Source: Deltaproteobacteria bacterium
GTDB lineage: Bacteria > Myxococcota > Myxococcia > Myxococcales > 40CM-4-68-19
DNA: 43,268 nucleotides
Assembly: GCA_005879315.1 (NCBI GenBank)
Contig: VBLC01000072.1
Span: 1 to 43,268 of the forward strand
Direction: 5' to 3'
The stretch's first letter is position 1; each line of letters begins with the position of its first letter. A program made the position numbers and the translations under genes. Positions 3,744 through 27,964 of this stretch are shown in pieces. A model generated the notes under the pieces. That model saw only the letters and a program-made list of their open reading frames with translations. It was not told the DNA's origin and did no database searches.

Positions 3744-5084
3744 CTAAGCGCTGCGGATCTTGTCGCGCCCAAACGTGACGTTCCGGGTCGCGTTTCGCGC
3801 ATCGACCACGAGCTTCGCGTCGTGCACGAGCTGCTGGTAGTCGATGCAGTCGTGGTCCGTCGCGATCACGACCACGTCGGCCTCGGCGACATTGGGATCG
3901 AGCGGCACGCTCTCCATCTCCAGCATGTACCGCGGCTGGTGGCGCATCTCCTTCATCTTCGGGCAGTACGGGTCGTGGTACTGCACCTCGGCGCCCTTCT
4001 GCTTGAAGAGCTCGATCAAGCGGATGCTGGGGCTCTCGCGCAGATCGTCGATGTTCTTCTTGTAGGCGAGGCCGAGGATGAGGACGCGCGCGCCCTTGAG
4101 CGCCTTGCCCTGCTCGTTCAACGCATCCATGGTCCGCTCGACCACGTGATAGGGCATCTGCCAGTTGATCTCGCCGGCCAGCTCGATGAAGCGCGTCTGG
4201 AACTCGAACTCGCGCGCCTTCCAGGTGAGATAGAAGGGATCGATGGGAATGCAGTGCCCGCCCAGCCCCGGCCCCGGATAGAATGGCATGAAGCCGAAGG
4301 GCTTGGTCGCGGCCGCGTCGATCACTTCCCAGATGTCGATCTTCATCCGCTCGCAGAGGAGCTTCATCTCGTTGACGAGCGCGATGTTGACGCAGCGGAA
4401 GATGTTCTCCAGGAGCTTGGTCAGCTCCGCCTCGCGCGTTCCCTTGACGGGGACGACCTTGCTGATGGCCGAGGCGTAGAGAGCGCAGGCGAGATCGGTG
4501 CACTGCTTGGTGTATCCGCCGACGACCTTGGGAATGGTCGCGGTGTTGAACTTGGGATTGCCGGGATCCTCGCGCTCCGGTGAGAAGGCGAGGAAGAAGT
4601 CGATGCCGGCGCGCAAGCCGGAGAGCTTCTCGAGGATGGGCTTGACCACCTCGTCGGTCGTGCCGGGATACGTCGAGCTCTCGAGCACCACCAGCTGCCC
4701 GGGCCGGACGTAAGGCCCGATGGCGCGCGCGGTGTTCTCGATGTACGTCATGTCCGGCTCGCGGTTGCCGTTCAGCGGCGTGGGCACGCAGAGGATGAGC
4801 GCGTCGGCCTGCGAGGCCTTGCGGAAATCCATGGTGGCGGTGAACGGCTTCTCCGCCCCGGTCGCCTTGCGGATGCGCTCGCCGGCGATGTGCTTGATGT
4901 ACGTCTCGCCCTTCTCGATGGCGTCGATCTTGCGCTGGTCGATGTCGAAGCCGACGACGGGAAAGCCCTTCTCCCCGAAGGTCAGCGCGAGCGGCAGACC
5001 GACGTAACCGAGGCCGCAGATTCCGACCACCGCCTCACGCGCGATGATCTTGTCCAAGAGCGTGGGCTCCTTGACCTGGAGCAT
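3744..5084 (-). CDS. wbpA: UDP-N-acetylglucosamine 6-dehydrogenase-like nucleotide-sugar dehydrogenase (WbpA-like)
   Basis: The protein has 446 residues, close to the family's usual length. UDP-sugar dehydrogenases oxidise C6 of a UDP-hexose twice with NAD+ to make the uronate. The Rossmann fingerprint GLGYVG is at residues 24-29. The catalytic-cysteine motif GPGLGGHCIPIDP places the thiol at Cys278. SSTYPGTTDEV and FSPEREDPGNP favour the WbpA (UDP-GlcNAc to UDP-GlcNAcA) subgroup over UDP-glucose dehydrogenase; substrate remains an inference. A strong purine-rich ribosome site (GGGAGGGGGG) precedes the ATG. This is the last gene of the EPS operon, 30 bp after the heparinase-like gene. Together with the DegT-type enzyme and acyltransferases it could feed a Wbp-like acylamino-uronate pathway, but no WbpB-type oxidoreductase is in the window. 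Confidence 0.93.
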   Translation of the reverse strand: MLQVKEPTLLDKIIAREAVVGICGLGYVGLPLALTFGEKGFPVVGFDIDQRKIDAIEKGETYIKHIAGERIRKATGAEKPFTATMDFRKASQADALILCVPTPLNGNREPDMTYIENTARAIGPYVRPGQLVVLESSTYPGTTDEVVKPILEKLSGLRAGIDFFLAFSPEREDPGNPKFNTATIPKVVGGYTKQCTDLACALYASAISKVVPVKGTREAELTKLLENIFRCVNIALVNEMKLLCERMKIDIWEVIDAAATKPFGFMPFYPGPGLGGHCIPIDPFYLTWKAREFEFQTRFIELAGEINWQMPYHVVERTMDALNEQGKALKGARVLILGLAYKKNIDDLRESPSIRLIELFKQKGAEVQYHDPYCPKMKEMRHQPRYMLEMESVPLDPNVAEADVVVIATDHDCIDYQQLVHDAKLVVDARNATRNVTFGRDKIRSA

Positions 5085-5114
5085 GTCCCCCCTCCCACCT
5101 TCGCCGCAGGCAAC

Positions 5115-7235
5115 CTAGGCATCGGACTGCGGGTCCGCCAGAAAGAGCACGGCAGTGAACAGTCGGGCGGGGACCTCGCCGGACAATTCGAGGAGGATGG
5201 TCCGCGCCGGCCGCAGCTCGGCATATCCAGGCGAGACGTCCGTCTCGATAATGGAAAGGCGCCAGGGCAGGGTGGCGCCGAACGCGAAGAGCGCCACCTC
5301 GCGCCCTTCCTGCGAGACCGCGACGCAGCGCTGCAGGTCGTAGCCGAAGGAAAGGCCGGCGTCGTGCAGCCGCTCCAGCCGCGCCGCCTCCGCCTCGCTG
5401 GCCGGCCGCTGCGCGACCTCGGTCTGCGGCACATGCCAGCGCAGCGCGATCTGGTGGGCGCCGTGGCCGTGCAGCTCGTCGACGATGGCCGCGGCGCGGA
5501 CTTCGCCGTGCAGCGCCGCCAGTCGCCGGTGCAAGACGCCCGCGCGCTGGTAGCCGTAGTGCTCGCCGGTCGCCAGCTCGAAGCCGTCCTTGCGCTCGAG
5601 GCGGAGGATGCGCGCCCGCGAGGTGTCGGGCAGCGCGAAGAGCCGGCCGGGGACGATGCGGTTCTGCTCCAGCCCATCGACCTGCACGGTGCTGTGGCCG
5701 GCCGTCCCCCGCCGCGCGTTGCGCTCGCGCGGATCGCGCGCGTAGACGAAGGTGCCGCGGTCGACGGCGAGATCGATCTTTCCCCACGACAGCTCGACGC
5801 TGTTCTTGTCGTTGTGGGCGTGGCCGCCGGTGCCGCCCTGCCCGTTCGGTCCGGCGCTGAGGCAGAGCCAGCCCTCGCCGTTGCGCAAGACCGCGACGCC
5901 GGCGTCGGCCAGCTCCACGCTGCACCTGCGGCCTTCGGTCGCGAGCCCCTCGAAGCGGTGCACGCCATCGGCGCCGAGCAGCCAGGCCACTTCCACCGGG
6001 CAGCTCACGCCGGGCAACTTCAGCTTCGCGTCGCGCAGCGCCGCCGCTCCCAGCGCCGCCAGGTACTCGCAGTCCAGCGGCGTGCGCGGCATGAGCGGCA
6101 GCCCGCGGCAGGAGTCGAGGTCGCCGACCTGGGGAATGTTGCCGCTCGGGTTGAGCACATCGGCGATGCTGCGGAACAATCCCGCGACGGCCCGCTCCAC
6201 CTCGCGAGGCGCCGGCGCTCCTGCGGCGCGCGCCGCGAGCACCGCCGCCAGGAACAGCTCGGCGCAGAGCCGCTGGTAGCCCATCGACGACTCGAAGTGC
6301 GTGCCGTCGCGGCGGCACTGGCGCGGGATCTCCTCCCACAGCCTGCGGCCGTACTCCTTCAGCCAGACGCGCGAGCGGCCCAGCTCGGGAAAGAGCGCGC
6401 CCACCACCACCAGCCCGACCAGGTCCGCGGCGTAGTGGTTGGTGCGGATGGCGCCCGTCTCCTCGAGGTGCTCCTCGATGAAGAGGCAGTGCTCCTCGAG
6501 GAACTCGAGCAATTCGCCGATGGCGCGCGCGTCGAGGGCGGGGTCGTCCCGCAGGTAGGCGAAGCTCATCGCCGCGTGCATCGCCCGCGCGCTCACCTCC
6601 ATCGCGCACGACCACTGCACGCCGAATCCCTTGCGGTTGTCGGCGCGGAACTGGCGCACCGTCTCGATGAAGGCGCGCGTCCAGGAGGAGCGCTCCTCGG
6701 CGCTCTCCGCCAGCCAGCGCGCCTGCGCGAAGCGCCAGAGATGCTGCAGCCGTCCGATCTCCCAGGCGGCCTTGGCGTCGGCGCCTTTCTGGAGGAGATC
6801 GACTTCCATCCCCGGCTGCGCCGGGTCGTAGCGGATCTGCGGATCCATCGGGTCGCGGTGGTAGTCGATGGTGGCGATGTCGGCGCCCGCGCCTTTGCGG
6901 CAATCCTTCCACTTGCCGAAGACGGGCAGCTCGCCGCGCCGGCAGGCCTCCGCCTCGCGCAGCACGAAGGAGCAGGCCTCGGGCCACCTCTCGCGCAAGA
7001 GCTGCGCGGTCTCTTCGCGCGCTGCGGGATCGACGATCGCCGGTCGCGCAGCCGAGAGAGCGAAGATCGCGCGGCTGCGGAAGGGCACCTCGAAGAAGAA
7101 AGGCGTGGCTCCGCTCTTCTCCAGCGCCAGCTTGAGGCCGGAGCGGAGCGCCTTGCGCGCGCGAGCCGCGACGGCGCGCGCCAGCTCGCGCGGCGGAATC
7201 GTCTGCGCGAGGTACGCGTAGTACTCGAAATCCAT
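5115..7235 (-). CDS. Heparinase II/III-family (alginate lyase-like) protein
   Basis: The protein has 706 residues. The first two-thirds is helical, as in the (alpha/alpha) toroid of polysaccharide lyase families. The C-terminal part carries the heparinase II/III beta-sandwich signature around GGTGGHAHNDKNSVEL and the following AVDRGTFVYARDP, with the conserved HxHND histidines. FHxS-like motifs such as HFESSMGYQRL and NPSGNIPQVGDLDS also fit the family. No signal peptide or membrane segment is visible, so as annotated it would be cytosolic, which is odd for a polymer-degrading lyase. Proteins of this kind are common in EPS loci of the XrtA type, where their role is unclear. The ATG shares one base with the TGA of the upstream fusion gene (TGATG), implying translational coupling. 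Confidence 0.88.
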   Translation of the reverse strand: MDFEYYAYLAQTIPPRELARAVAARARKALRSGLKLALEKSGATPFFFEVPFRSRAIFALSAARPAIVDPAAREETAQLLRERWPEACSFVLREAEACRRGELPVFGKWKDCRKGAGADIATIDYHRDPMDPQIRYDPAQPGMEVDLLQKGADAKAAWEIGRLQHLWRFAQARWLAESAEERSSWTRAFIETVRQFRADNRKGFGVQWSCAMEVSARAMHAAMSFAYLRDDPALDARAIGELLEFLEEHCLFIEEHLEETGAIRTNHYAADLVGLVVVGALFPELGRSRVWLKEYGRRLWEEIPRQCRRDGTHFESSMGYQRLCAELFLAAVLAARAAGAPAPREVERAVAGLFRSIADVLNPSGNIPQVGDLDSCRGLPLMPRTPLDCEYLAALGAAALRDAKLKLPGVSCPVEVAWLLGADGVHRFEGLATEGRRCSVELADAGVAVLRNGEGWLCLSAGPNGQGGTGGHAHNDKNSVELSWGKIDLAVDRGTFVYARDPRERNARRGTAGHSTVQVDGLEQNRIVPGRLFALPDTSRARILRLERKDGFELATGEHYGYQRAGVLHRRLAALHGEVRAAAIVDELHGHGAHQIALRWHVPQTEVAQRPASEAEAARLERLHDAGLSFGYDLQRCVAVSQEGREVALFAFGATLPWRLSIIETDVSPGYAELRPARTILLELSGEVPARLFTAVLFLADPQSDA

Positions 7236-14216: not shown

Positions 14217-15392
14217 CTATCCGTGCGCGGAGAGGCGCTCCTCCGCCCCGCCCTCCGGCTCGTCGAAGCGGGTGGGCCGCGCGCCGATGACCGGCTCCTG
14301 CATCGAGAGCATCATCAGCGTGTCCTCGAACTGGCACGCGGTCAGCGCCTTGGAGTAAGCGCCCAGGACTCCCGTCGAGGACCGCTCCCAGAGCACCTTT
14401 CGCTTGAGCGCGAAGGGATCGGCCCCGGGCACGTTCGGCATGTCCTCGGTGGTGACGGCGCTGATGAAGCCCTCGGACTTGAGCGCCTCCACCACCCCGG
14501 CGCTGTAGTAGCCGTTGCAGTAGGCGAAGTGGCGGACGGGCTTCTTCACATTCTTCTCGATGGCGGCCCGGCACTGCGCCACCTCGCGCCGCGCCTCGGC
14601 GATGGGCTGCAGCGTGAGCACGGTGTGGTCGGCCGTGTGGCCGCCGGTGGCGACGCCGTGCGCGTCCATCTCGCGGAGCATGTCCCAGCTCATCGGGAGC
14701 TGGCCATCCGGCACGCGGACGTCGGTGAGGCCGAGCCGATCCTCGAGCTGCTCGGCGAGGCGCAGGAGCGCGGGCGTCGGGCGTCGCGAGATGAGCCGTT
14801 CGAGCGCGAGGTACGCGCTGGAGCCGCCGTCGAAAGCGTCGACCAGCCAGCGCTCGCCCTCGCCGCCCACGCCAACCCCCATGGGCGGAATCCCCCGCTG
14901 GACCATCTTGGAGAGCGCGAGATAGAGCCGGTCGTGGCCCAGCCGCCGGTCGGTGCCGATCAGCGACGAGGGCACGTAGACGATCCCCGGCAGCCGCATC
15001 TCCCGCAGGACGGGAAAGGCCTTGGTGTACACGTCGCGGTAGCCGTCGTCGAAGGTGATCACCGCCACGTCGCGCGCCGCCCGCCGGGTGCCGTCGAGCA
15101 CGCAGAGGGCATCGTCGATCGAGACGACGTCGTGGCTTTCCTGGAGGACTTCGAGATGGCGGCGGAAGGTCTTCTGCTCGATGTTCAGCGTCGGCAGGCC
15201 GTGCTTCGCTTCCTCGGCGAAATCGCCCACCACGCGGTGGTAGCTGAGGATGAGCACGCGCCGTCCGCCCACCGCCCGTCGCTGGATGGCCGAGAGCAAT
15301 TCGCGCGCGCCCGAATAGTGCAGCGCCAGCGCCGCCGCGCCTTTCAAGGTGCGCCGCGCCAGTTGCACCGCCGCGCTTTTCAGCCCGTCCAT
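14217..15392 (-). CDS. Polysaccharide deacetylase (NodB domain)
   Basis: The protein has 391 residues. NodB-type enzymes (carbohydrate esterase 4) remove N-acetyl groups from amino-sugar polymers using a metal held by Asp-His-His. The first motif TFDDGYRD is at residues 113-120, with the catalytic and metal-binding aspartates, and the HxxxH metal motif appears in GGHTADHTVL around 255-260. A second-half strand HFAYCNGYYSAGVVEAL matches the family's FRPPyG-like region only loosely. There is no obvious signal peptide, although the N-terminus is amphipathic (LARRTLKGAAALALHY). XrtA-type EPS loci carry such a deacetylase. It is preceded by a good ribosome site (GGGAGGGTGAG) and couples tightly to the flippase gene. 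It probably modifies the polymer or its lipid-linked precursor. Confidence 0.9.
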   Translation of the reverse strand: MDGLKSAAVQLARRTLKGAAALALHYSGARELLSAIQRRAVGGRRVLILSYHRVVGDFAEEAKHGLPTLNIEQKTFRRHLEVLQESHDVVSIDDALCVLDGTRRAARDVAVITFDDGYRDVYTKAFPVLREMRLPGIVYVPSSLIGTDRRLGHDRLYLALSKMVQRGIPPMGVGVGGEGERWLVDAFDGGSSAYLALERLISRRPTPALLRLAEQLEDRLGLTDVRVPDGQLPMSWDMLREMDAHGVATGGHTADHTVLTLQPIAEARREVAQCRAAIEKNVKKPVRHFAYCNGYYSAGVVEALKSEGFISAVTTEDMPNVPGADPFALKRKVLWERSSTGVLGAYSKALTACQFEDTLMMLSMQEPVIGARPTRFDEPEGGAEERLSAHG

Positions 15393-15434: not shown

Positions 15435-16712
15435 TCACTCCTGCAAGATTCTCAACGCTGCCGACAGCCGGGATTCCCCCTCGGGCAGCGGCGCCTTGAT
15501 CACGCGCCGCGCCTTGCGCATCGCATTGATCGCGCGCTGCGGCAGCGCCGCCTTGAGGGTCTCACGGGCGAAGACGGCCGCCCGCTGCGCCGCCCTCGCC
15601 GCCTGGCCGCGCCGGCCGCGCCAGAGACGGATCTGGATGGTCCAGCGCTCGCCGCGCGCCCATTCGCCCTTGTAGCCCTCGTCGCCGCGGAGGAAATCGA
15701 ATTCCTGCAGGCCCTCGGCGAAGGCGTCCGAGACCGTGCGCGCGAGGAGCACCAGGCCCACCGACTTCGAGGCCCAGCCAGGATCGTAGCCGGACTGGTA
15801 ATAGATGAACTTTCCCCGATGGACGACGCCGTAGACGGAGGCGACCGGCCGGCGGGCGGCGAAGAGCGTGTACATCCGCAGCCAGCCGCGGCCGGCGAGA
15901 AGGCGCGTCACGGAGCGGTGGAAGGCTTCGTGCCGGTCGTCGGCGAGACCGTCGGAGCCGCCCTCGGCGGCCCAGCGCGCGCGATGCAGGGCAAGGAAGC
16001 GCTCGGTCGAAGCCTTTGCCTCCTCCTCGGTGCGGGCGCATTCGATGGACACGCCGGGCTGTCGGAAGAGCCACTTCTCGCGCCGGCGCAGGTTCTCCCT
16101 GCGGCTCAGGCCGCCGAGGTACTCCTGATAGTTGCCGGTCAAGGGAATGTGCGGGCAGACGTAGCGCACGCGGCCGTCGCGGATGACGTTGCGCGCGTCT
16201 CCGCCCAGGCCGGCCTGGCCGGAGAGGATCGATCGCGAGGAGGGAAACCGCTGCGCCAGCTGCAGCGCGGTCGGGCTCTCGCGCCAGAGGCCGTCGAGAT
16301 CGCACACGTCCCAGGGCAATTCCCCAAGCTCTCTCAGGCAGGCCTCGAGGACCTCGCGCTCGCGGCCCGGAGCGGCGAGCAGGTCGAGATAATCGCAGCC
16401 GGTCGCGCCGTCGCCGACGAAGGCGATGCGCTCCACCTCGACGCCGCCCAGCCGCTCGCGCTGGGAAAAGAGCGGCCAGAGGCCGATGAGCTTCTCCCTC
16501 TCGCGCACGCAGATGACCCGCAGCTCGCGCTCCTGGCCGAAGAGGCGCCACCAGGGGTCGAGCCAGTCCGGCGCAAGGAAGAGACAGCCGGCGCGAGCGC
16601 TCTCGTTCAGCTCCTGCCACTGCGGGCGCAGCCGCGAGAGCTCCGCCGGATCGCGGAGGACGGAAACGGCGAGCGTCGCGGGCCCGGTCATCTGGACTGC
16701 CGCCTCCGTCAT
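15435..16712 (-). CDS. CelD/FemAB-like GNAT acyltransferase (EPS-associated), copy 1
   Basis: The protein has 425 residues. It belongs to the GNAT-like acyltransferase group (Acetyltransf_6, BcsL/CelD or FemAB-like) often found in EPS clusters. Visible family marks are SARAGCLFLAPDWLDPWWRLFG near the N-terminus, SRRENLRRREKWLFRQPG in the middle, and the C-terminal block RMYTLFAARRPVASVYGVVHRGKFIYYQSGYDPGWA followed by LQEFDFLRGDEGYKGEWA. It should transfer an acyl group from an acyl donor to an amino sugar or polymer amine; the actual donor is unknown. Its ATG overlaps the TGA of the DegT-type gene by four bases (ATGA). With the paralogue at 17910-19049 it brackets that aminotransferase, suggesting amination followed by N-acylation of one sugar. 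Confidence 0.85.
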   Translation of the reverse strand: MTEAAVQMTGPATLAVSVLRDPAELSRLRPQWQELNESARAGCLFLAPDWLDPWWRLFGQERELRVICVREREKLIGLWPLFSQRERLGGVEVERIAFVGDGATGCDYLDLLAAPGREREVLEACLRELGELPWDVCDLDGLWRESPTALQLAQRFPSSRSILSGQAGLGGDARNVIRDGRVRYVCPHIPLTGNYQEYLGGLSRRENLRRREKWLFRQPGVSIECARTEEEAKASTERFLALHRARWAAEGGSDGLADDRHEAFHRSVTRLLAGRGWLRMYTLFAARRPVASVYGVVHRGKFIYYQSGYDPGWASKSVGLVLLARTVSDAFAEGLQEFDFLRGDEGYKGEWARGERWTIQIRLWRGRRGQAARAAQRAAVFARETLKAALPQRAINAMRKARRVIKAPLPEGESRLSAALRILQE

Positions 16713-17908
16713 GCGAGCAGCTCGCGGGTGCAGACCGCGACGTGCTCGGCGTCGGCCGGCGACAGGTCCTGGTGCACCGGCAGCTCCAGCACCGTCTCGC
16801 GCAGCTGGTCGACCTCGGGAAAGGCGCCGAGCGGCAGGGCCGGATGGCGCAGGCGCCAGAAGTCGACCGTCTCCACGCCGCGGGCGAGCAGGCGGGCCAT
16901 CGCGCCGGCCTTGTCTTCGACGGCCATCGGATAGAAGAGCGGGCAGACGCCGGGCTTCAATTCGCCGGTGACCGGCGGAGCCACGTCGCGGAGCATGGCG
17001 TAGAGGAGGAAGTAGTTGCGCCTTCGCCGCTCGACGATCTCGGCGTAGTTCTGGTTGCGCAAGACCAGGTGGCTCGCGGCGCTCATCCCCAGCTGCACGG
17101 CGCCGAGGTCGAAGTGCTGCGTGCCGGTCGAGACGCGCTCGATCTTCGCCCTGCGCACGAATCGGCGGCTCGACTCGCGCAGCGCCTGCCGCACGCGCCG
17201 GCCCAGATCGCCCGTCCGCAGCTCGAGGTTGGAGAGCAGGCTGCCGATGAGGTGCGAAGTGGTCGAAGTCAAGGGCGCCGGCGACACATCCGGCAGCGAC
17301 GAGAGCTTGCCGGCGACCTCGCCGCGCGCGAGCAAGAGCCCGCCGTTGGGCACCGGCAGCGTCTTGTAGAGGCAGTAGACCGAGACGTCGCCGGTCGAGC
17401 CGAGCGGCTTGTCGCCGTCGCGGGAGAGCAAGGCCAGCGCGCAGTCCTCGACAAGCGGCACGCCCAGCTCCCGGGCGAGTGAGCGCGCCGCCTCCATGTC
17501 TTGCGGGAAGCCGGCGTAGTGGATGACGTAGAGCGCGGCGGCATCGGCCGCCTTGCTGCGCGCGTCCTCGAAATCGCAGCGCATCTGCGAATCGACGCGG
17601 AAGAAGACCGGCCGCGCTCCCGCCGCGAGAAGGGCCTCGAGCTCCACCCCATGGTGATAGGCGGGCAGGAGCACTTTCTTGCCGGCAAGCCCGAGCAACT
17701 CGACCGCATCCCAGACGGCGTTGCGGGCGAAGTAGCGGTAGCGCAGATGCGGCTGGTCGAAGGGAAAGACCAGCGGCGCGGTGGCCGCCGGACGGGGGAA
17801 GAGCATGTGCGGCCAGACCGTCTGCATGCTCGGCACGGTGCGCTTGGGCAGAGGAGCGCGCTCCCCTTGGCCTTCCGCCACCCGCAGCCGCTGCGCCGTG
17901 TTCGCCAT
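16709..17908 (-). CDS. DegT/DnrJ/EryC1/StrS-family aminotransferase, divergent
   Basis: The protein has 399 residues. The family uses pyridoxal phosphate to aminate keto-nucleotide sugars. The fold is recognisable from KKVLLPAYHHGVELEALLAAGARPVFFRVD (79-107), the cofactor aspartate in PLVEDCALAL (151-160) and the lysine expected to form the Schiff base in VYCLYKTLPVPNGGLL (Lys182). The region before residue 40 is not typical, and the block around SFHETK seen in the WecE protein of this window is replaced, so it is a distant member. The ATG at 17908 has AGGGGGAA upstream and begins one base after the stop of the upstream acyltransferase. Likely role: aminating a sugar destined for the EPS repeat unit. 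Substrate not assignable. Confidence 0.82.
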   Translation of the reverse strand: MANTAQRLRVAEGQGERAPLPKRTVPSMQTVWPHMLFPRPAATAPLVFPFDQPHLRYRYFARNAVWDAVELLGLAGKKVLLPAYHHGVELEALLAAGARPVFFRVDSQMRCDFEDARSKAADAAALYVIHYAGFPQDMEAARSLARELGVPLVEDCALALLSRDGDKPLGSTGDVSVYCLYKTLPVPNGGLLLARGEVAGKLSSLPDVSPAPLTSTTSHLIGSLLSNLELRTGDLGRRVRQALRESSRRFVRRAKIERVSTGTQHFDLGAVQLGMSAASHLVLRNQNYAEIVERRRRNYFLLYAMLRDVAPPVTGELKPGVCPLFYPMAVEDKAGAMARLLARGVETVDFWRLRHPALPLGAFPEVDQLRETVLELPVHQDLSPADAEHVAVCTRELLA

Positions 17909-17909
17909 C

Positions 17910-19049
17910 TCAGTTCCCCCTGCGGAAGAAGCGCCGGACGATCGGCCAGATCGTGTAGCGCGCCTCGTGCACCCAAAGGCCCTTCTGCGTCGGCCGGAAG
18001 ATGGTCAGCCAGCTGTGCGTGCGCAGCTTGCTCTCCCAGTCGAGCTTCCAGTCCATGCAGGGGCCGAGGAAGTCGAACTCGGCCAGGCCGCGGCTGCAGG
18101 CGTCGCGGATGGCCTCGCTGACCAGCTGCTGGCCGGGTGAGAACTCGTGGAACTTCTCGTCGTAGCCGAGCTTGAAGAGATAGCTGCGGGCGCCGCGGAT
18201 GAGGCTCATGTGCCCGGCGATGCGCTTGTTTGCCAGCTCGAGGAAGCCGAGCATCAGCTCCTTGCGCTTGGCCGCGTCGCGCGCCACCTGCGTGTAGAAG
18301 CCGACCAGATCGGGGCGCTGCGCGATGGCGGTGCCGCTCTGCCCCTTCCAGCCGCCCGCCTCGATGGTGAAGAAGTCCGCGAGGGCCTCGTCGAGCTCCT
18401 TGGCGTCCCTGCCGTCGACGATGACGTACTTCACCTCGCCCTGCTCGGCGAGGCGGCGCTTGCGGCGGCGCAGGTTCTGGCGGAACTTGCCGTCGACTGC
18501 CGCTTCGACCTCCTCGTACTTCTTCGGAAGCGGCAGGTACGGCGAGCGCATCGAGACGAAGAGCCCGCAGGGATATCCCGCCCGCTCGGCCAGGCCGCGC
18601 AGCTGCCACTCTTGGGCGCCGTCGGGCAGATCGCGCAGGCGGAGCCGGTCCCAGCCGGGCGTGTCCATCAATTGCTCCCAGATGGCGCGCAGGCCTTCTT
18701 CGCTGCGCCGGCCGAGGAGCATTCCGCCGCGCTGCGAGTGATCGTTGGAAGGCATCGCCCAGGTCGTCATCGGAAGGAAGCAGGTATCGGCGGCGCGGTC
18801 GCGCGATTCGATCAGCGGCAACGCGGCGTGCAGCTCGCGCCCGGCCCGCGCCACGAAGGTGCGCAGCGTCGCGCCCGGAGCGAAGTTCTCGATGAAGGCG
18901 CGCGTCCACTCGTGCCGCAGCATCGGCTCGTCGCGCGGCCCCTTGGCGAGCGCGGCGTTCCACTCGCGCTCGAGCGAGCAGAAAGCGTCGCGACCGGGAA
19001 GCACTTCGACGCGCAGCTCCTCCTCGCGCAGCTTGACCGCGACGCTCAT
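17910..19049 (-). CDS. CelD/FemAB-like GNAT acyltransferase (EPS-associated), copy 2
   Basis: The protein has 379 residues and belongs to the same group as the gene at 15435-16712. Shared marks are a central basic stretch DGKFRQNLRRRKRRLAEQG, LMLGFLELANKRIAGHMSLIRGARSYLFKLGYDEKF, and a terminal LAEFDFLGPCMDWKLDWESK block equivalent to EFDFLRGDEGYKGEW in copy 1. XrtA-type EPS loci normally carry one FemAB-like protein; here there are two, separated by the aminotransferase gene. The start ATG at 19049 overlaps the TGA of the sugar-transferase gene by four bases, and the stop is one base before the next ATG. I expect N-acylation of an amino sugar or addition of an aminoacyl group; the distinction cannot be made from sequence. 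Confidence 0.85.
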   Translation of the reverse strand: MSVAVKLREEELRVEVLPGRDAFCSLEREWNAALAKGPRDEPMLRHEWTRAFIENFAPGATLRTFVARAGRELHAALPLIESRDRAADTCFLPMTTWAMPSNDHSQRGGMLLGRRSEEGLRAIWEQLMDTPGWDRLRLRDLPDGAQEWQLRGLAERAGYPCGLFVSMRSPYLPLPKKYEEVEAAVDGKFRQNLRRRKRRLAEQGEVKYVIVDGRDAKELDEALADFFTIEAGGWKGQSGTAIAQRPDLVGFYTQVARDAAKRKELMLGFLELANKRIAGHMSLIRGARSYLFKLGYDEKFHEFSPGQQLVSEAIRDACSRGLAEFDFLGPCMDWKLDWESKLRTHSWLTIFRPTQKGLWVHEARYTIWPIVRRFFRRGN

Positions 19050-20677
19050 CGCGCGCCCCTCCCGAAGAGGACGATCTTGACGGTGTGGAAGCAGATGGCC
19101 AGGTCGAGGAAGAGCGACTGGTGCTGCACGTAGTAGAGGTCGTACTCGAGCTTGTTTTTGGCGTCCTCGACGGTGGCGCCGTAGGGATAGCGGATCTGCG
19201 CCCACCCGGTGATGCCCGGCTTGACCGCCTCGCGCAGGGAGAAGAAGGGGATCTGCGTCTTCAGCTGCTGGACGAAGAAAGGCCGCTCCGGCCGCGGCCC
19301 GACGAAGGACATGTCGCCGCGGAAGACGGCGAACGCCTGGGGAATCTCGTCGAGGCGCGACTTGCGCAAGAATGTGCCCACCCGGGTGGTGCGCGGATCG
19401 CGGACTCCCGCCCAGACCGGGCCGGAGATCTTCTCCGCGTCGTTGCGCATGGTGCGGAGCTTGTAGAGCCGGTAGATCTTTCCGCCGCAGCCGAGGCGCT
19501 CCTGCCAGTAGAAGACGGGGCCTGCGGAGTCGAGCTTGATGAGGATGGCGAGGAAGAGGAGCATCGGCGCCGCGCAGATGAGCAAGAGCGAGCTCATCAG
19601 CAGATCGAAGACGCGCTTTACCGCCGCGCGCACGGGCGAGGTGAGACCGTCGCCGATGGCCAGATCGCTCGGCCGCAAGAGCGAGAGCGGCACCCGCCGC
19701 AGCACGCGCTCGGCGAATCGCTGAGCCGGCAGCACCGTCACGCCGGAGTGGCGCAGGCGGATGAGCTCGTCGACGGGAAGGCGGGCGCGCCGCTCGTCCG
19801 AGGCGACCACCACCGTGTCGACGCGCAGTTCCCGCGCAGCTTCGGCGAGGGAACGCGCGCTGACCACCATGGCATGCGGCGCGGTGGGGAGCTGCACCAC
19901 CGGCGCGAGCGGGCCCTCGGTCTCGGCCGAGGCGAGCCGCGGCGCGCTCGGCAGGGCAGCCACCGTCGCCTCTGCCACCGGGCCGGAGATCTGCGCCGGC
20001 GCACCCGAAGGCCCCACCACCAGCTGGGAGGCGGCCACTACGTCCGCCACCGGCGCCATCGCCACCTCCGCGTCCGGGGCAGACTCGCTGGTCACCAGTC
20101 CGGGCGGTGCGGCGATCATCGGCTCGGCGCCGGCGCCCACCGCCACCTTGTGCGATTCCGTTCCGGGCAGCGTCAGGTCGATCGAAGGGTCGAGCTTCCC
20201 TGCCGCCTCGTACTCGCCGAACGCCTCGGTGCGGATGATCCGCTCGATCTCCAGGGCGCGCTGTCCAGCGCCGATGATGAGGACGCGGTTGTGGCCGCGC
20301 TCGTCGATGCGCGCCACCAGCGCAGCGCGGGCGAGGAGGATGCCGACGCTGGCCACGCCGATGGTGTCGATCAGCGCGCCGCGCGGCAGCCCGCCGCGAG
20401 CGAGGACTCCGCAGACTGCCGCCGCGAGCGCGGCGAAGCCGAGGGCCCGCAGGACGCCGCTGCCGCGGGTGCGATCGTTGCGCATGATCTGCGGATCGTA
20501 CAGATCGGCCAGGTACAGCGCGGCGGGAATGCAGGCCGCCGACGCCACCAGCGCCGCCAGCTGCGAGCCGCGGGCGTGCTGCCCGCCGACCCAGAGAGCC
20601 AGCGCGACCAGCGCGCTCTCGACGAACACCAGCCGGGCGGCCCTTCCGCTGTACCAGTGACCCGCAAACTGCGGCAT
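19046..20677 (-). CDS. Polyprenyl-phosphate sugar-1-phosphate transferase (EpsE/WbaP-like) with a large insert
   Basis: The protein has 543 residues. This class starts EPS synthesis by moving a sugar-1-phosphate from UDP-sugar to undecaprenyl phosphate at the inner membrane. The N-terminal part has about four membrane segments (roughly 12-125), then a Rossmann-like domain (VLIIGAGQRALEIERIIRT, 132-150; VDTVVVASDERRARLPVDELI, 286-306). The catalytic domain starts near 353 with the hydrophobic VFDLLMSSLLLICAAPMLLFLAILIKL and contains GPVFYWQERLG, YKLRTM, FLRKSRLDEIPQ, GDMSFVGPRPERP and VKPGITGWAQ, all hallmarks of the family. Residues about 165-275 form an Ala/Pro/Val/Ser-rich insert interrupting the Rossmann domain. 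Architecture and neighbours match the XrtA-associated EpsE type. Confidence 0.93.
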   Translation of the reverse strand: MPQFAGHWYSGRAARLVFVESALVALALWVGGQHARGSQLAALVASAACIPAALYLADLYDPQIMRNDRTRGSGVLRALGFAALAAAVCGVLARGGLPRGALIDTIGVASVGILLARAALVARIDERGHNRVLIIGAGQRALEIERIIRTEAFGEYEAAGKLDPSIDLTLPGTESHKVAVGAGAEPMIAAPPGLVTSESAPDAEVAMAPVADVVAASQLVVGPSGAPAQISGPVAEATVAALPSAPRLASAETEGPLAPVVQLPTAPHAMVVSARSLAEAARELRVDTVVVASDERRARLPVDELIRLRHSGVTVLPAQRFAERVLRRVPLSLLRPSDLAIGDGLTSPVRAAVKRVFDLLMSSLLLICAAPMLLFLAILIKLDSAGPVFYWQERLGCGGKIYRLYKLRTMRNDAEKISGPVWAGVRDPRTTRVGTFLRKSRLDEIPQAFAVFRGDMSFVGPRPERPFFVQQLKTQIPFFSLREAVKPGITGWAQIRYPYGATVEDAKNKLEYDLYYVQHQSLFLDLAICFHTVKIVLFGRGAR

Positions 20678-20722
20678 GCGCGCGACCCCCGAATCCCAGG
20701 TTGTGAACCACCACCGCAGCTC

Positions 20723-21505
20723 TTACTTGCCGGCTGTCAGATGTCCCTTCACCACCGGCAGGGGCGCCGGAACCCGGGCGGGATCGACGCCGTTGAGCAC
20801 CATGCCCCAGATGGGCGCGCCGGCGAGCGACCGGACCGCGCCGGCCACCTGCTCGCGCGGCGTCGTGCCCGCGCGAACGACCAGCACGATGCCGTCCGCC
20901 TTGTGCGCCACCACCGACGAATCCGCCGTGGCCAGCGCGGGCGGCACGTCGAGGTAGATCTCGTCGAAGAGGGTGCGCAACAGACCGAGGGTCTGCGCGA
21001 ACCGCGGGCCCGCCAGGAGCGAGGCCGACTCGGCTCCGGGCACGCGCCCCGCCGGGATCACCGCCAGGTGACCCTCGGGGTAGCGGCCCAGCGCTTCGCC
21101 GATCTCGGTCTTGCCGGTGAGCACCTCGGCCAGGCCCGGACGGGCGCCCATCCCGAAGAGCTGCGCCAGCCCGCCGCGCCGCAGGTCGCAGTCGACCAGC
21201 GCCACGCGAGCGTCGCGCGCCCGCGCTGCGGTCAGCGCCAGGTTCGCCGCGGTGACGGACACGCCCTCGCCGCGCACCGAGCTGGTCGCGGCGATGACCG
21301 CGCCGCCCTGGATCGCCTCTCCGCGGAGCGCCCGCATGTGCCGCAGCCGGTGGAGGAGGATGCGGTACTGCTCGGCCGCCGCCCCCATCGGCTGGGTGAT
21401 CGCCACCAGCCGCTCATCGATCGCCTGGCCGGCCTCGCCTGCGCCGCCCTCGATGCGCTCGAGGAACGGACCCCTCGCCGCCACTTCCTTGGGAATGCTC
21501 GACAT
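20723..21505 (-). CDS. CpsD/CapB-family tyrosine-kinase-like ATPase with degenerate Walker A
   Basis: The protein has 260 residues. The family (BY-kinases and XrtA-associated TyrK-like proteins) hydrolyses ATP next to the co-polymerase and cycles phosphorylation on a C-terminal tyrosine cluster. Walker A' is intact (VALVDCDLRR, 101-110) and Walker B reads FDEIYLDVPPAL (180-191). The P-loop, however, is SVRGEGVSVTAANLA: the invariant lysine of GxxGxGK(S/T) is Val82 (codon GTG). The C-terminus contains no tyrosine at all. This suggests loss of kinase activity and a structural or nucleotide-sensing role. The gene lies 16 bp after the co-polymerase gene. Frame and codon usage around the P-loop are normal, so a sequencing frameshift is not indicated. 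Confidence 0.88.
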   Translation of the reverse strand: MSSIPKEVAARGPFLERIEGGAGEAGQAIDERLVAITQPMGAAAEQYRILLHRLRHMRALRGEAIQGGAVIAATSSVRGEGVSVTAANLALTAARARDARVALVDCDLRRGGLAQLFGMGARPGLAEVLTGKTEIGEALGRYPEGHLAVIPAGRVPGAESASLLAGPRFAQTLGLLRTLFDEIYLDVPPALATADSSVVAHKADGIVLVVRAGTTPREQVAGAVRSLAGAPIWGMVLNGVDPARVPAPLPVVKGHLTAGK

Positions 21506-21521: not shown

Positions 21522-22910
21522 TCAGCCTTCGTTTTCGCTGTGAACTGCCAAGAGCCGCGGCCTCGAATGCACGACCGCCAGCTGCGGCACGCAAGCCAGG
21601 ACCGGCAGCGTCAGCGCCATGCTCACTTCGCCCTCGCTGCGCAGCGAGCGGTCGGACAGCTCCTGGCCCAGCGCCACTGCGATGCCGAGCGCGACCGCCG
21701 CCAGGAACGCGAGCAAGAGCGCCTGCGGCCGGTTCGGGCTGGCGGCGATGGTGGGCGGCTGCGCGCTCTCCAGCACGCGGAATTCCGCCGGCCCCGACTT
21801 CGTCTCCAGCTCGGCCGTGATCTCCGCCTCCGCCTTCTTGGAGATGAGCGAGGCCACCTTGACCTTGACCAGGTCGACGTCCTTCTCCAGGTCGTCGATC
21901 TGCGCCCGGGTCAGGGGCGTGGCGGCGACCAGCTTGTCGATCTGGGCGATGCGCTGCTCCAGCGCTCCGACCCGCTTCGTGCTCCGCTCGATGGCCGCGG
22001 TCATGCGCCGCTGCTCGAGGTCGTTCTGCGCCGCGCGGGCGCGGGCAGCCTGCAGCCGGGCGGAAGTGAATTCGGTCTCGCGCTTGAGCGCCTGCACGTC
22101 GGGATGATCGGCGGTCAGCCCCGAAATCGCGGCGCCCAGCTTGGCGCGCATCGTGTCGTACTGCTCCTCGAGGCGCCCCACCTCGGTGTCCTTGCCGAAG
22201 GGCTGGGTGCCGAGCAGGTCGATGCGGTGCTGCGCCTCCTTGGCGAAGCCCTCCTCCTGCTCGATCTGCTTGCTGATGGCTTCGCGCTCGTGCATCCGCG
22301 CCTCGACGAGCTCGGGCAAGGTGTCGGCGTGCTCCTGCTTGTAGGCGGCCACCTTGGCCTGGGCGCGCGACAGCTCGCCGCGCATCTCGGCCAGCTTCTG
22401 CGAGATGATCTCGCGGGTCCGCGTCACCTGTCCGGCGCGCACCTGGAGGTTGCCCTCGATCATCAGCTCGGCCAGCCGGTTGGCGGTCTTGGCCGCGTCC
22501 TCGGCGCTCTTGCTGCGCACGATGATGGCGAAGACGTTCTCGCCGTCGGCGTGCACTTCGGTGTCGTTGCGGAAGGCCTCGATGGCCCCGTCCATCCCGT
22601 ACTTCTCCCGCTCCTTGGGATAGAGCTTGAGCTCTTCGATGGCGGTGGCCATCAGGCCGCGCGCGTAGACCTGCGCCCGCACCGATTTGACCTTCTCCTC
22701 CAGGCTGGTGGCGCCGATCATCGGCACCACCAGATCGGGATGGGGCGTGAAGGGCTCCACCATCACCAACGCTCTCGCCTTGTAGTCGTCGGGCAGGCGG
22801 GCGATGACCACCGCCGCCAGCGCCAGCACGCCAAAGGCGATCGCCGCCGTCACCTTCCAACGCCGCCGGATTGCGGCGAAGAGCTCGTCCATCGTGTAGG
22901 TCCGATCCAT
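21522..22910 (-). CDS. Polysaccharide co-polymerase / chain-length determinant (Wzz/GumC-like)
   Basis: The protein has 462 residues. The ATG at 22910 has GGGGAGGG four bases upstream; the frame extends seven codons further but without a ribosome site. Two membrane helices flank a long periplasmic domain: about 20-40 (VTAAIAFGVLALAAVVIARL) and about 394-415 (ALLLAFLAAVALGIAVALGQEL), the second preceded by the proline-rich ASPNRPQ typical of Wzz proteins. The middle (roughly 150-350) is strongly coiled-coil in character. The short cytosolic tail carries no kinase domain; that function is split into the next gene. These proteins set polymer length and bridge the inner-membrane assembly to the OPX protein. 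XrtA-type loci carry a protein of the same layout. Confidence 0.92.
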   Translation of the reverse strand: MDRTYTMDELFAAIRRRWKVTAAIAFGVLALAAVVIARLPDDYKARALVMVEPFTPHPDLVVPMIGATSLEEKVKSVRAQVYARGLMATAIEELKLYPKEREKYGMDGAIEAFRNDTEVHADGENVFAIIVRSKSAEDAAKTANRLAELMIEGNLQVRAGQVTRTREIISQKLAEMRGELSRAQAKVAAYKQEHADTLPELVEARMHEREAISKQIEQEEGFAKEAQHRIDLLGTQPFGKDTEVGRLEEQYDTMRAKLGAAISGLTADHPDVQALKRETEFTSARLQAARARAAQNDLEQRRMTAAIERSTKRVGALEQRIAQIDKLVAATPLTRAQIDDLEKDVDLVKVKVASLISKKAEAEITAELETKSGPAEFRVLESAQPPTIAASPNRPQALLLAFLAAVALGIAVALGQELSDRSLRSEGEVSMALTLPVLACVPQLAVVHSRPRLLAVHSENEG

Positions 22911-22938
22911 CGTCCCTCCCCTGAGACTCATCCGAGGC

Positions 22939-24133: not shown

Positions 24134-24688
24134 CTAAGGCACCACCACGGTGTCGCCGGGCTGCAGCGAGACGCGGCTGCGCCCGTTGACGAGATCGTCG
24201 TAATCGACCTCGATGCGCCTGCCGTCGGCGTGCAGCACGGAGATGCCGCCGCGGTCGGCGAACTCGACCAGGCCGCCGGCCAGCGCCAGCGCCTGGAGGA
24301 CGTTCATGCTGTTGCGCAGCGGGAAGGACCCCGGATGGCCCACCATGCCGGTGACGTAGACGCGCGCGCCGTTGACGTCGTGGACGATGACGGTGACGTG
24401 CGGGTCGCGCACGAAGCTCGCCAGCGCCTTCTGGACGTTCTGCTCCAGCTCCTGCGGCTTGAGCCCCTCGGCCTGCATCTCGCCGATCAGCGGCATGGTC
24501 ACCTTGCCGTCCGGACGGATGGGCATGGTGCGCGAGAGCTCCGCCTCCTTCCAGACGGAGACCTCGATGACGTCTTCCCTGCTCAGCCGGAACTCGGAGA
24601 TCTGCTGGACGTCGTCCTGCACCTGAGCGTGATGGCAACCCGCGACCAGCGCGGCAGCCGCCATCCACAATCCGACATTCCTCGCCAT
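24134..24688 (-). CDS. Short polysaccharide export (OPX/Wza-like) lipoprotein
   Basis: The protein has 184 residues. A lipoprotein signal (MARNVGLWMAAAALVAGC) gives lipid-modified Cys18. The polysaccharide-export domain follows (about 33-105): LSREDVIEVSVWKEAELSRTMPIRPDGKVTMPLIGEMQAEGLKPQEL. One SLBB domain spans about 108-184 (VYVTGMVGHPGSFPLRNSMNVLQALALAGGL) and the protein stops right after PGDTVVVP. Canonical Wza (about 380 residues) has more SLBB domains and a C-terminal amphipathic helix that crosses the outer membrane; both are missing here, so another protein must form the outer-membrane pore. A strong ribosome site (GGGGAGGGAG) precedes the ATG. This is the first gene of the EPS operon, about 38 bases after the predicted sigma-54 start site. 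Confidence 0.92.
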   Translation of the reverse strand: MARNVGLWMAAAALVAGCHHAQVQDDVQQISEFRLSREDVIEVSVWKEAELSRTMPIRPDGKVTMPLIGEMQAEGLKPQELEQNVQKALASFVRDPHVTVIVHDVNGARVYVTGMVGHPGSFPLRNSMNVLQALALAGGLVEFADRGGISVLHADGRRIEVDYDDLVNGRSRVSLQPGDTVVVP

Positions 24689-24736
24689 GCTCCCTCCCCT
24701 TCCCGCATCGGGACAAACCGGACCGCCGGCTCCTTG

Positions 24737-24752
24737 AGCACGCGGCGTGCCA
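24737..24752 (-). promoter_or_regulatory. Sigma-54 promoter of the EPS operon
   Basis: On the minus strand the 16-mer reads TGGCACGCCGCGTGCT, against the -24/-12 consensus TGGCACG-N4-TTGCW. All seven bases of the -24 block match, and the -12 block differs at one position, with GG and GC in exact spacing. The predicted transcript would start near 24726, about 38 bases before the OPX start codon. The position suits RpoN control by the response regulator encoded just upstream. Confidence 0.78.
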
Positions 24753-24815
24753 GCGGATCCACCCGCCTCTGTGGTTGCCTCCTCTTCGCTTGCAGGCGGT
24801 GAACCAGACTTGCGG

Positions 24816-24879
24816 GCAGGCGCACCTGCGCTCGCGGCGCTGTGCCGGACCACGCCGTTTCCGCGGAGAGGAACTCCGC
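24816..24879. promoter_or_regulatory. Candidate activator-binding inverted repeats between divergent sigma-54 promoters
   Basis: Two inverted repeats occur here: GCAGG-cgca-CCTGC at 24816-24829 and GCGGAG-aggaa-CTCCGC at 24863-24879. They lie about 95 and 145 bp upstream of the predicted EPS start site and about 120 and 70 bp upstream of the predicted start of the small membrane-protein gene. These distances are typical of enhancer sites for sigma-54 activators. The two repeats do not resemble each other, so at most one may be the true site. Apart from these and the two promoters I see nothing else in 24689-24984. Confidence 0.4.
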
Positions 24880-24916
24880 TTCCCACCGTCGTGCAGCGAA
24901 CTCCTCTGAAAGGGTT

Positions 24917-25388: not shown

Positions 25389-26999
25389 TTATGCGGTGCT
25401 CGAGCCGTCAGCGACGATCCCGATGGGACCCGGCAGATTTTCCGGCATGCCCGCCGTGATGCGCGGGTCGGTCAGGCCGCAGTCCTTGATCTTGTAGAGC
25501 AGCGCCTTGTAGCTGATCTGCAGCCGCCCCGCCGCCTTGCGCTTGTTCCAGTTGGTGCGCGCAAGCATGGCGCTGATCGCTTCCCGCTCGGCCCGCATCG
25601 CCGCCTGCCGGGCGATGTCTTTGAGCGACACCGTCTCGGCCATCGGCACCACCGGCGCGACGACCGGCTGCGGCGGCGCGGGGTGCTGCTGCAGGCCCTG
25701 GTTGGCCGGAGGCAGCGTGCCTCCCGCCGAGCCGGTGGCCAGCGGCGTCTGCATCGCCGGCCGGCGCGCGATGGCCGCGGCGAGCTCGTCGAGCACGTAC
25801 TTCTCGTCGCGCAGCACCACCAGGCGCCGCACTAGATTTTCCAGCTCGCGCACGTTGCCCGGATAATCGTAGTCGAGCAGCCGGCGGATCACTTCATCGG
25901 AGAACTGCAGCGCGCCCTGCCGGTACTTGCTGCCGTACTTGCGCCGGAAATGCTCGATCAATCCAGGGATGTCTTCCTTCCTATCGCGCAGAGGGGGAAC
26001 CAGTACGCTGACGACATTGAGCCGATAGTAGAGATCCTCGCGGAAATTGCCGCGCGCGATCTCGTCCTCCAGCACGCGGTTGGTGGCGACCACGACGCGC
26101 GCGTCGGCGCGCAGCGGCCGCTTGCCGCCCACGCGGTAGTACTCCTCGTCCTGCAAGACCTGCAGGAGCTTGGCCTGCAGGGCCGGGTGCATCTCGCCGA
26201 TCTCGTCGAGGAAGATGGTCCCTTTGTCGGCCAGCTCGAACTTGCCCGGCTTCTCGCTGGTGGCGCCGGTGAACGCGCCACGCTCGTGCCCGAACAGCTC
26301 CGACTCGAGCAGCTCGCTGGGCAGCGCCGCGCAGTTGATCTTGACGAAGGGCTTGCCCCGCCGCTGCGAGCGCTCGTGCACCGTGCGTGCGATTCCTTCC
26401 TTCCCCACGCCGCTCTCGCCGCGGATGAGGACCGGCACGTCCGTCTCGGCGACGCGGTCGACCATCTCCCAGATGGAGAGCATGGCCGGGCTGGAAGCGA
26501 TGAAGTCGACCGGCGGACCGCGCCGGCTCGAGTCGACGCGCACCGGCGATACTCCTTCGGCCGGCGCGCGCAGGACGGGCACGCTGGGTGGCGGCGGGCC
26601 GTCCTCGGACGGCGGCGGCCGCGAGCTCGCGCTGCAGCGCTCGATCGCCTCTTTCAATTCTCCAGGCTCGATCGGCTTGACGAGGTAGTCGCTGGCGCCC
26701 AGCCGCATCGCCTTGACCACCGCCTCCTTCTCGTCCATGGCGGAGAGCGCGATGACCGGCGCCGTGCCGCCTTCCGAGCGATAGGCGCGCAGCACCTCGA
26801 AGCCGTCCAGGCCCGGCATGCGCAGGTCGAGCAGCACCGCCTGGGGCTGGGCGGCGGCGCCCGCGAGCCATTCCAGACCTGCCTTGCCGTCCGGAGCAGC
26901 GAAGGCGTGAAATCCGATCCGCCCGAGAAGCTCGACGAGGATCTCTCTTGCCGCCTCATCGTCATCAATGACGAGAACCTGATTCGGTCTCTGCTGCAT
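25389..26999 (-). CDS. Sigma-54-dependent response regulator (NtrC/PrsR-like)
   Basis: The protein has 536 residues. A receiver domain spans 7-120, with acidic pocket IDDD (11-14), phospho-acceptor Asp58 in LLDLRMPG, and the conserved Lys in YLVKPIEPGE. A proline-rich linker (about 127-165) leads to the AAA+ domain: Walker A GESGVGKE (194-201), the sigma-54 contact loop GAFTGA (241-246) and Walker B TIFLDEIG (261-268). A second Pro/Gln-rich linker precedes a Fis-type helix-turn-helix, NWNKRKAAGRLQISYKALLYKI, near the C-terminus. All catalytic features are intact. The ATG at 26999 has GGGGAG upstream; the longer frame lacks a ribosome site. It is encoded directly upstream of the EPS operon and has its own -24/-12 element at 27098-27113. 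It matches the PrsR type of EPS regulators. No partner histidine kinase is in the window. Confidence 0.95.
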   Translation of the reverse strand: MQQRPNQVLVIDDDEAAREILVELLGRIGFHAFAAPDGKAGLEWLAGAAAQPQAVLLDLRMPGLDGFEVLRAYRSEGGTAPVIALSAMDEKEAVVKAMRLGASDYLVKPIEPGELKEAIERCSASSRPPPSEDGPPPPSVPVLRAPAEGVSPVRVDSSRRGPPVDFIASSPAMLSIWEMVDRVAETDVPVLIRGESGVGKEGIARTVHERSQRRGKPFVKINCAALPSELLESELFGHERGAFTGATSEKPGKFELADKGTIFLDEIGEMHPALQAKLLQVLQDEEYYRVGGKRPLRADARVVVATNRVLEDEIARGNFREDLYYRLNVVSVLVPPLRDRKEDIPGLIEHFRRKYGSKYRQGALQFSDEVIRRLLDYDYPGNVRELENLVRRLVVLRDEKYVLDELAAAIARRPAMQTPLATGSAGGTLPPANQGLQQHPAPPQPVVAPVVPMAETVSLKDIARQAAMRAEREAISAMLARTNWNKRKAAGRLQISYKALLYKIKDCGLTDPRITAGMPENLPGPIGIVADGSSTA

Positions 27000-27097
27000 T
27001 TCACTCCCCGTTTCCAAAATCGACCGGCCGCTGGTGAACAGTAGCCGGTCAAGTTTTCCGAAACCGGGCCCACAGAGAGGCGCCCGGCGGCCAGCTG

Positions 27098-27113
27098 AGC
27101 AAGCGCTGTGCCA
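27098..27113 (-). promoter_or_regulatory. Sigma-54 promoter of the response-regulator gene
   Basis: On the minus strand the 16-mer reads TGGCACAGCGCTTGCT, 11 of 12 matches to TGGCACG-N4-TTGCW with exact spacing. The start site would be near 27087, about 88 bases before the ATG. Inside this leader lies an inverted repeat, GACCGG (27022-27027) / CCGGTC (27045-27050). Upstream, GGTGT and ACACC near 27140-27165 form a loose inverted repeat. A sigma-54 promoter ahead of a sigma-54 activator suggests autoactivation. Confidence 0.75.
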
Positions 27114-27151
27114 TGATTGGGGAATGCGCGGCGCAACGGGTGTACTGCCGT

Positions 27152-27964
27152 TCACACCGGCGCGCGTCGCCAGAACTCCCGCAGCGCGGAATGGACTGCG
27201 CGCTGCGCTTCGATGTTCACCGCGTGGCCGACGTCGGGGATGACCATCAGCTGCGCGCCGGGGATGAGACTGGCCAGCTCCTCGCCGTTGGAAAGCGGCG
27301 AGAGCTGATCGAGCGCGCCGTGGATGACGAGCGCGGGAACGCGCAGCTGTCCGAGCCGATCGCGGGTGTCGTGCGAGAGGGCGGCGTCGACCTGGCCGAT
27401 GAATCCTTCGGGCGGCTGCAGCGGCTGGGAGGCGGCGAAGCGCAGCGCGGCGCGGACGTTCGCCTCCTTGCGCCAGAACAGGTCTGTGAAAAGCCAGGCG
27501 TAGGCCTGCCGCTCCCAGGCGGCGCGCAGCTCGGGGCCCTGCGTCGCCAGGGGATAGAGCGCGCGCCAGGCGAGCAAGAGCGCGCGGGTGCGCGGCGCCT
27601 GGAAAGCGAAGGTGGAGAGCAGCGCCAGCGATCGGATGCGCTCGGGATGCTGCAGCGCCAGCTCCTGTCCCGCCGCGCCGCCGAGCGAGAGGCCGACCAG
27701 GTGCGCGCGCTGCACCGAGCAGGCGTCGAGCACGGCGAGCGCATCGAGCGCGAGCTGCCGCGTCGTGTACGGCCCGCGCGGCGCATCGCTTGCTCCCACG
27801 CCGCGCGCGTCGGGCGCGATGCTCCGGTGCGACTGCGCGAAGTGCGCCAGCTGCACCGACCAGGCGGCGGCAGGCGCATTGAGGCCCTGCAGCCAGAGGA
27901 CGTCCTCGCCTTTGCCCTGCTCGACGACGTGCAGCCGCGTCCCATCGGCCGTGACGACTTGCAT
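27152..27964 (-). CDS. Alpha/beta-fold hydrolase
   Basis: The protein has 270 residues. The alpha/beta-hydrolase signature is complete: oxyanion region WLQGLNAPAAAW, the DARGVGASD motif at 52-60, the nucleophile elbow GLSLGG with Ser93, a probable acid in GALDQLSP and the catalytic histidine in DVGHAVNIE (His247). The fold is shared by 3-oxoadipate enol-lactonases, haloperoxidase-like esterases and PHA-related hydrolases; sequence does not decide among them. No signal peptide, so cytosolic. It follows the FabG-like gene by 5 bp, suggesting a two-gene unit. The response-regulator promoter lies within about 55 bp of its stop, so read-through into the regulator is possible. Confidence 0.88.
   Translation of the reverse strand: MQVVTADGTRLHVVEQGKGEDVLWLQGLNAPAAAWSVQLAHFAQSHRSIAPDARGVGASDAPRGPYTTRQLALDALAVLDACSVQRAHLVGLSLGGAAGQELALQHPERIRSLALLSTFAFQAPRTRALLLAWRALYPLATQGPELRAAWERQAYAWLFTDLFWRKEANVRAALRFAASQPLQPPEGFIGQVDAALSHDTRDRLGQLRVPALVIHGALDQLSPLSNGEELASLIPGAQLMVIPDVGHAVNIEAQRAVHSALREFWRRAPV

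Follow-up and report, generated by a model that had tools for sequence, protein, structure and literature searches.

A probable BY pseudokinase in the ExoD/BtkA lineage of a myxobacterial spore-coat-type polysaccharide cluster

The 260-residue protein described here, encoded in a 43,268-nucleotide stretch of DNA from the order Myxococcales (hereafter the window, meaning the whole stretch), is probably a catalytically dead, scaffold-type BY pseudokinase within the ExoD/BtkA (WzeS) lineage. Its status as a pseudokinase is well supported by sequence, selection and structure. Its lack of catalysis, its binding to the co-polymerase and its scaffold role are what we infer by analogy with two published protein pairs, EcpK/EpsV and HfsB/HfsA. 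The novelty is that the loss occurred independently in the ExoD/BtkA lineage, whose Myxococcus orthologue is an active kinase.

Motifs of the protein and its place in an exo-type cluster

A preliminary description, made from the DNA letters, had read the P-loop as GEGVS, with Val82 in place of the Walker A lysine in a clean GTG codon and a well-behaved frame, and had noted that Walker A' and B were still recognisable and that the C-terminus carried no tyrosine. These readings were all borne out. Thus, translation gives 260 residues followed by a stop codon, the P-loop is SSVRGEGVSVTAANLA, codon 82 is GTG, and in the profile alignment Val82 falls on position 540 of Wzc, which is lysine in BY-kinases. 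Walker A' (VALVDCDLRR, with Asp105 and Asp107) and Walker B (YLDVPP, with Asp186) are intact, and Ser83 is retained. By residue scan, tyrosines occur at positions 47, 142 and 184 only, leaving the last 76 residues tyrosine-free. Against the NCBIfam models, the protein scores below the cut-off both for TIGR03018, the XrtA-associated tyrosine autokinase (124 bits, cut-off 231), and for TIGR01007 (98 bits, cut-off 108).

The gene lies in an operon (Table 1) that runs OPX, 396-residue protein, polysaccharide co-polymerase (PCP), pseudokinase, sugar-phosphate transferase, GNAT, DegT, GNAT, deacetylase. We number the families f1 (that of the window) to f9, where f6 is presumably Anaeromyxobacter, f4 is the Myxococcaceae and genus g24 of f4 is, we assume, Myxococcus. 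The order OPX-PCP-kinase-GNAT-DegT-GNAT is common to f2, f4 (including the Myxococcus genome), f5, f6 and f7, and by this shared order the operon in the window matches the exoA-I/MASC spore-coat cluster of M. xanthus, where the co-polymerase ExoC has no kinase domain and is paired with a separate BY-kinase, ExoD/BtkA (PMC3858216, PMC7310880). In the IQ-TREE phylogeny, the family sits among the stand-alone ExoD sequences and is separated from the one PCP-2a row used as outgroup, and the best match of the window protein in Myxococcaceae genomes is the ExoD-position protein. Synteny and tree thus identify the protein as the orthologue of Myxococcus ExoD/BtkA (WzeS), and this assignment takes the place of the label "CpsD-like EPS ATPase" given in the preliminary description.

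Table 1. Features of the export cluster in the window. The positions ExoE to ExoI are our own assignment, made partly from general knowledge.
Feature	Positions	Strand	Remarks
Probable BY pseudokinase, ExoD/BtkA orthologue, 260 aa	20723..21505	-	Val82; intact Walker A'/B; Tyr-free tail
ExoC-like polysaccharide co-polymerase (PCP-2b, 469 aa), predicted partner	21522..22931	-	TIGR03007, 162 bits; N-terminal Wzz
ExoB-position gene, 396 aa	22939..24129	-	syntenic; no Pfam/NCBIfam family match
ExoA-like outer-membrane polysaccharide export protein (OPX)	24134..24886	-	Poly_export + SLBB
Sigma-54-dependent response regulator, NtrC-like	25389..27155	-	directly upstream of the export operon; syntenic in f1, f5, f6
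Initiating sugar-phosphate transferase, ExoE position	19046..20677	-	Bac_transf, XrtA-type EpsB_2
GNAT-type acyltransferase, ExoG position	17910..19045	-	range end approximate
DegT/DnrJ/EryC1 aminotransferase, ExoH position	16709..17908	-	synteny
GNAT-type acyltransferase, ExoI position	15435..16712	-	synteny
Polysaccharide deacetylase	14217..15392	-	syntenic in f1, f5, f6, f7

A family search of the predicted partner, the ExoC-like PCP, found no kinase-family stretch, and the protein ends soon after its second transmembrane region. The order of PCP and kinase genes is the same in relatives. A further TIGR03007-type PCP was sought in the source genome and none was found.

Several observations concern the neighbouring genes. 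The 396-residue ExoB-position protein is conserved at 49–60% within the family and at only 24–29% in f5 and f6; it is a candidate for the outer-membrane barrel that pairs with the OPX protein. The sigma-54 response regulator was not seen in the fetched Myxococcaceae loci. The longest open reading frame, with 934 aa at 17910-20714 on the minus strand, runs in a different frame across the sugar-phosphate transferase gene; since the actual start lies near 19045, automatic annotation could readily miscall it. Downstream of the glycosyltransferases, at 3744-7235 on the minus strand, genes for a UDP-glucose/GDP-mannose dehydrogenase and a heparinase II/III-like protein suggest a polymer containing uronic acid. 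An Rfam scan of the window gave no match.

Predicted fold and proposed function

Orthologues were searched for in 12 genomes of the family and 145 of the order. The family yielded seven, from three genera and separate assemblies, at 73–85% identity. An AlphaFold2 model of the 260-residue protein, built with 38 relatives (pLDDT 84.6, pTM 0.83), predicts the Rossmann/P-loop fold of BY-kinases. Indeed, the best solved Foldseek matches are all BY-kinase domains (E of 1e-16 to Wzc), and the VIA Z scores are 30.1 to CapA1B1-ADP-Mg, 29.4 to CapAB K55M and 29.4 to Wzc K540M.

The last two structures are engineered counterparts of the state found here. Wzc K540M is an inactive kinase mutant employed in structure work (PMC11986026), which is still octameric and still binds ADP and Mg (PMC8285477); the octamer formed by CapA1B2 K55M (CapB K55M) also contains ADP-Mg (PMC3795738). 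They resemble the window protein in having a neutral side chain at the same residue of the same fold (Z of 29). They are, however, laboratory mutants with tyrosine tails, whereas the window protein represents a natural state fixed across a family. Since both mutants bind Mg-ADP, the missing lysine, although strong evidence against phosphotransfer, does not count against the binding of nucleotide, which the retained Asp105, Asp107, Asp186 and Ser83 leave possible.

We propose that the pseudokinase arose inside the ExoD/BtkA lineage of stand-alone BY-kinases that serve the spore-coat (MASC/Exo) polysaccharide pathway. It most likely folds like a BY-kinase and docks like one beneath the ExoC-like co-polymerase, via the cytoplasmic C-terminus of that partner. 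There it would serve as a scaffold, holding or guiding the octamer of co-polymerase without any cycle of tyrosine phosphorylation. The preliminary description had predicted a pseudo-kinase acting on the co-polymerase without phosphotransfer. In silico, this prediction is upheld by the residues, the selection, the kinase-less partner and the lack of another BY-kinase match; the loss of activity itself we infer.

One fact speaks against a pure scaffold, namely that Asp105, Asp107, Asp186 and Ser83 are all kept, unlike in EcpK, where all three motifs are lost. Judged from these retained residues, some nucleotide-dependent function is possible. It might take the form of a nucleotide-binding switch without kinase activity, in which binding or slow hydrolysis controls ring assembly with the co-polymerase; we regard this alternative, which overlaps the scaffold reading, as tentative. 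With the same reserve, the Mg-nucleotide might be held by the P-loop backbone, Ser83, Asp105/Asp107 and Asp186. None of the seven family orthologues differs at the three acids or at Ser83, Asp107 and Asp186 are invariant in 38 of 38 aligned relatives, and the Mg-ADP octamers of the two mutants (PMC8285477, PMC3795738) would fit such a switch. The retained residues are, however, also structural in the fold, and EcpK functions without any of the motifs (PMC12004946). A related and similarly speculative idea is that the protein is the natural equivalent of Wzc K540M: it would have given up phosphotransfer for good and retained a site for Mg-nucleotide, leaving the ring of the spore-coat co-polymerase under the control of nucleotide binding or of docking alone. 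Such a state may have evolved repeatedly within this orthologous group, whose Myxococcus member is active.

That the protein is still an active kinase is improbable. A relocated cation or a substitute, such as Arg78 of the P-loop, would then stand in for the lysine, and the kinase would phosphorylate a different protein instead of its own tail. All seven family orthologues have Arg78, as do most of the relatives with Arg82, Walker A' and B are intact, and a relocated lysine is known among eukaryotic kinases (WNK). However, since Arg78 is also found alongside Arg82 in relatives, it is no compensation specific to Val/Thr82. Wzc K540M, moreover, is inactive (PMC11986026), and searches of the source genome, a 125-contig draft assembly of 97.55% completeness, found neither a Wzb-type tyrosine phosphatase nor a CapC/PHP phosphatase, the latter being present in a Myxococcus genome. 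The only low-molecular-weight phosphatase match carries CVHNAGRS as its active site, a sequence characteristic of arsenate reductase (ArsC-like) and not of Wzb.

Searches of the same assembly for a second BY-kinase found none, an absence that its completeness makes likely, not certain, as it does for the phosphatases; the other BY-kinase-like matches are a ParA-type (C52), a ParA/MinD-like (C88) and an Mrp-type (C112) ATPase. Another BY-kinase acting in trans was accordingly dropped as a candidate.

Relation to published BY-kinases and pseudokinases

The closest known system is ExoD/BtkA (WzeS) of M. xanthus, with which the window protein shares synteny, the split PCP-2b architecture and about 45% identity to the orthologue in the Myxococcus genome (G038). 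BtkA of M. xanthus is reported to be catalytically active and required for mature spores and the spore coat (PMC12004946, PMC3858216). The Myxococcaceae orthologues have GEGKT and, mostly, a YLKNY-like tail, in contrast to the Val or Thr and the tyrosine-free tail found here.

BY pseudokinases that act without phosphotransfer have been published as the pairs EcpK/EpsV of M. xanthus and HfsB/HfsA of Caulobacter (PMC12004946). The window protein has the features that mark such proteins: the catalytic lysine and the tyrosine tail are missing, and the partner PCP-2 has no kinase domain. EcpK (MXAN_7447) is similar in being a stand-alone protein with neither catalytic lysine nor tail tyrosines, in having a kinase-less partner, EpsV, and in its proposed role as a phosphorylation-independent scaffold (PMC12004946). 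The likely EcpK orthologue of the Myxococcus genome, about 43 kb from epsY, has no Walker motifs and a Lys/Arg-rich C-terminus, whereas the window protein retains Walker A' and B, has a tail that is not basic and belongs to an exo rather than an eps cluster. Three findings ruled out orthology to EcpK: the synteny, the retained motifs and the score of only about 10 bits that the likely EcpK orthologue reaches against the ExoD profile. HfsB, from the holdfast pathway of Caulobacter crescentus, likewise stands alone as a BY pseudokinase alongside a PCP-2 that has no kinase domain (PMC12004946), but belongs to another pathway and another phylum; it is likened here by its published description.

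In the standard model, PCP-2 co-polymerases need cycles of tyrosine phosphorylation, and the exceptions, EcpK and HfsB, have diverged very far. The preliminary description had presented the window protein as a change from the standard export model. This part does not hold as a novelty, since the idea of a pseudokinase is prior art, published for EcpK/EpsV and HfsB/HfsA (PMC12004946). In the open-access literature, we found no description of a pseudokinase in the ExoD/BtkA group, nor of the graded Lys, Arg and Val/Thr series across the order that is set out below.

Fixation in the family and residue 82 across the order

Of the seven family orthologues, five have Val at residue 82 and two have Thr. 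Where residue 82 is Val, the codon varies among genomes (GTG, GTC, GTT) and the residue stays the same; pairwise dN/dS among the orthologues is 0.10–0.39. The spread of the orthologues, the codon turnover and the dN/dS values together indicate that the change at residue 82 has become fixed, is common to the orthologues and is maintained by purifying selection. The tail is tyrosine-free in 7/7, and all seven carry in it a new conserved motif, PxPLPxVxGxLxxG.

These data bear on two further alternatives. A gene decaying toward loss is very unlikely. Catalytic residues have indeed been lost, and an ExoD orthologue was found neither in the same-genus genome G003 (91% complete) nor in genus g4 of the same family (G009, G011), an absence that may reflect gene loss or an assembly gap; yet the frame is intact in seven genomes, dN/dS is low in the range given, operon order is kept, and the tyrosine-free tail motif is conserved throughout. 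A sequencing or assembly error at codon 82, conceivable in a draft of 125 contigs, is ruled out for practical purposes, since six other assemblies, too, encode Val or Thr at this position, and do so with different codons.

Two family members, G006 and G008, have an additional, canonical Wzc-like protein with the lysine and a Tyr-rich tail, so that the loss is specific to the ExoD-type gene. In G006 (C171; loci L059 and L139/L145), this kinase with its Tyr-rich tail has a Wzb-like phosphatase (CTGNICRS) about 3 kb away.

Across the order, residue 82 is Lys in f2, f3, f4, f5 and f7, Arg in f6, f8 and f9, and Val/Thr in f1. The lysine was replaced, by Arg or by Val/Thr, at least three times on the order's tree, whose deep branches are poorly resolved and where f8 is long. 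A single origin of the loss was rejected (AU test, p = 0.006), with the same weak resolution of the deep branches. Thus, the change is visible within one orthologous group and one operon, from Lys with (mostly) Tyr in the Myxococcaceae, through Arg, to Val/Thr without Tyr. In such closely matched natural pairs, one can ask at what point, and for what reason, phosphorylation ceases to be needed.

All sampled f6 orthologues (for example, L093 364-1146 in G039 and L030 1432-2193 in G033) have Arg in place of the Walker A lysine, and in most of them Glu replaces the first Asp of Walker A'. The Arg-bearing orthologues of f6, f8 and f9 are possibly further pseudokinases. Other orthologues, one in f5 (L024 1492-2268) and two in f3 (L027 1432-2211 and L088 501-1370), keep the lysine of GEGK and have a tail without tyrosine; tail loss and lysine loss are thus uncoupled.
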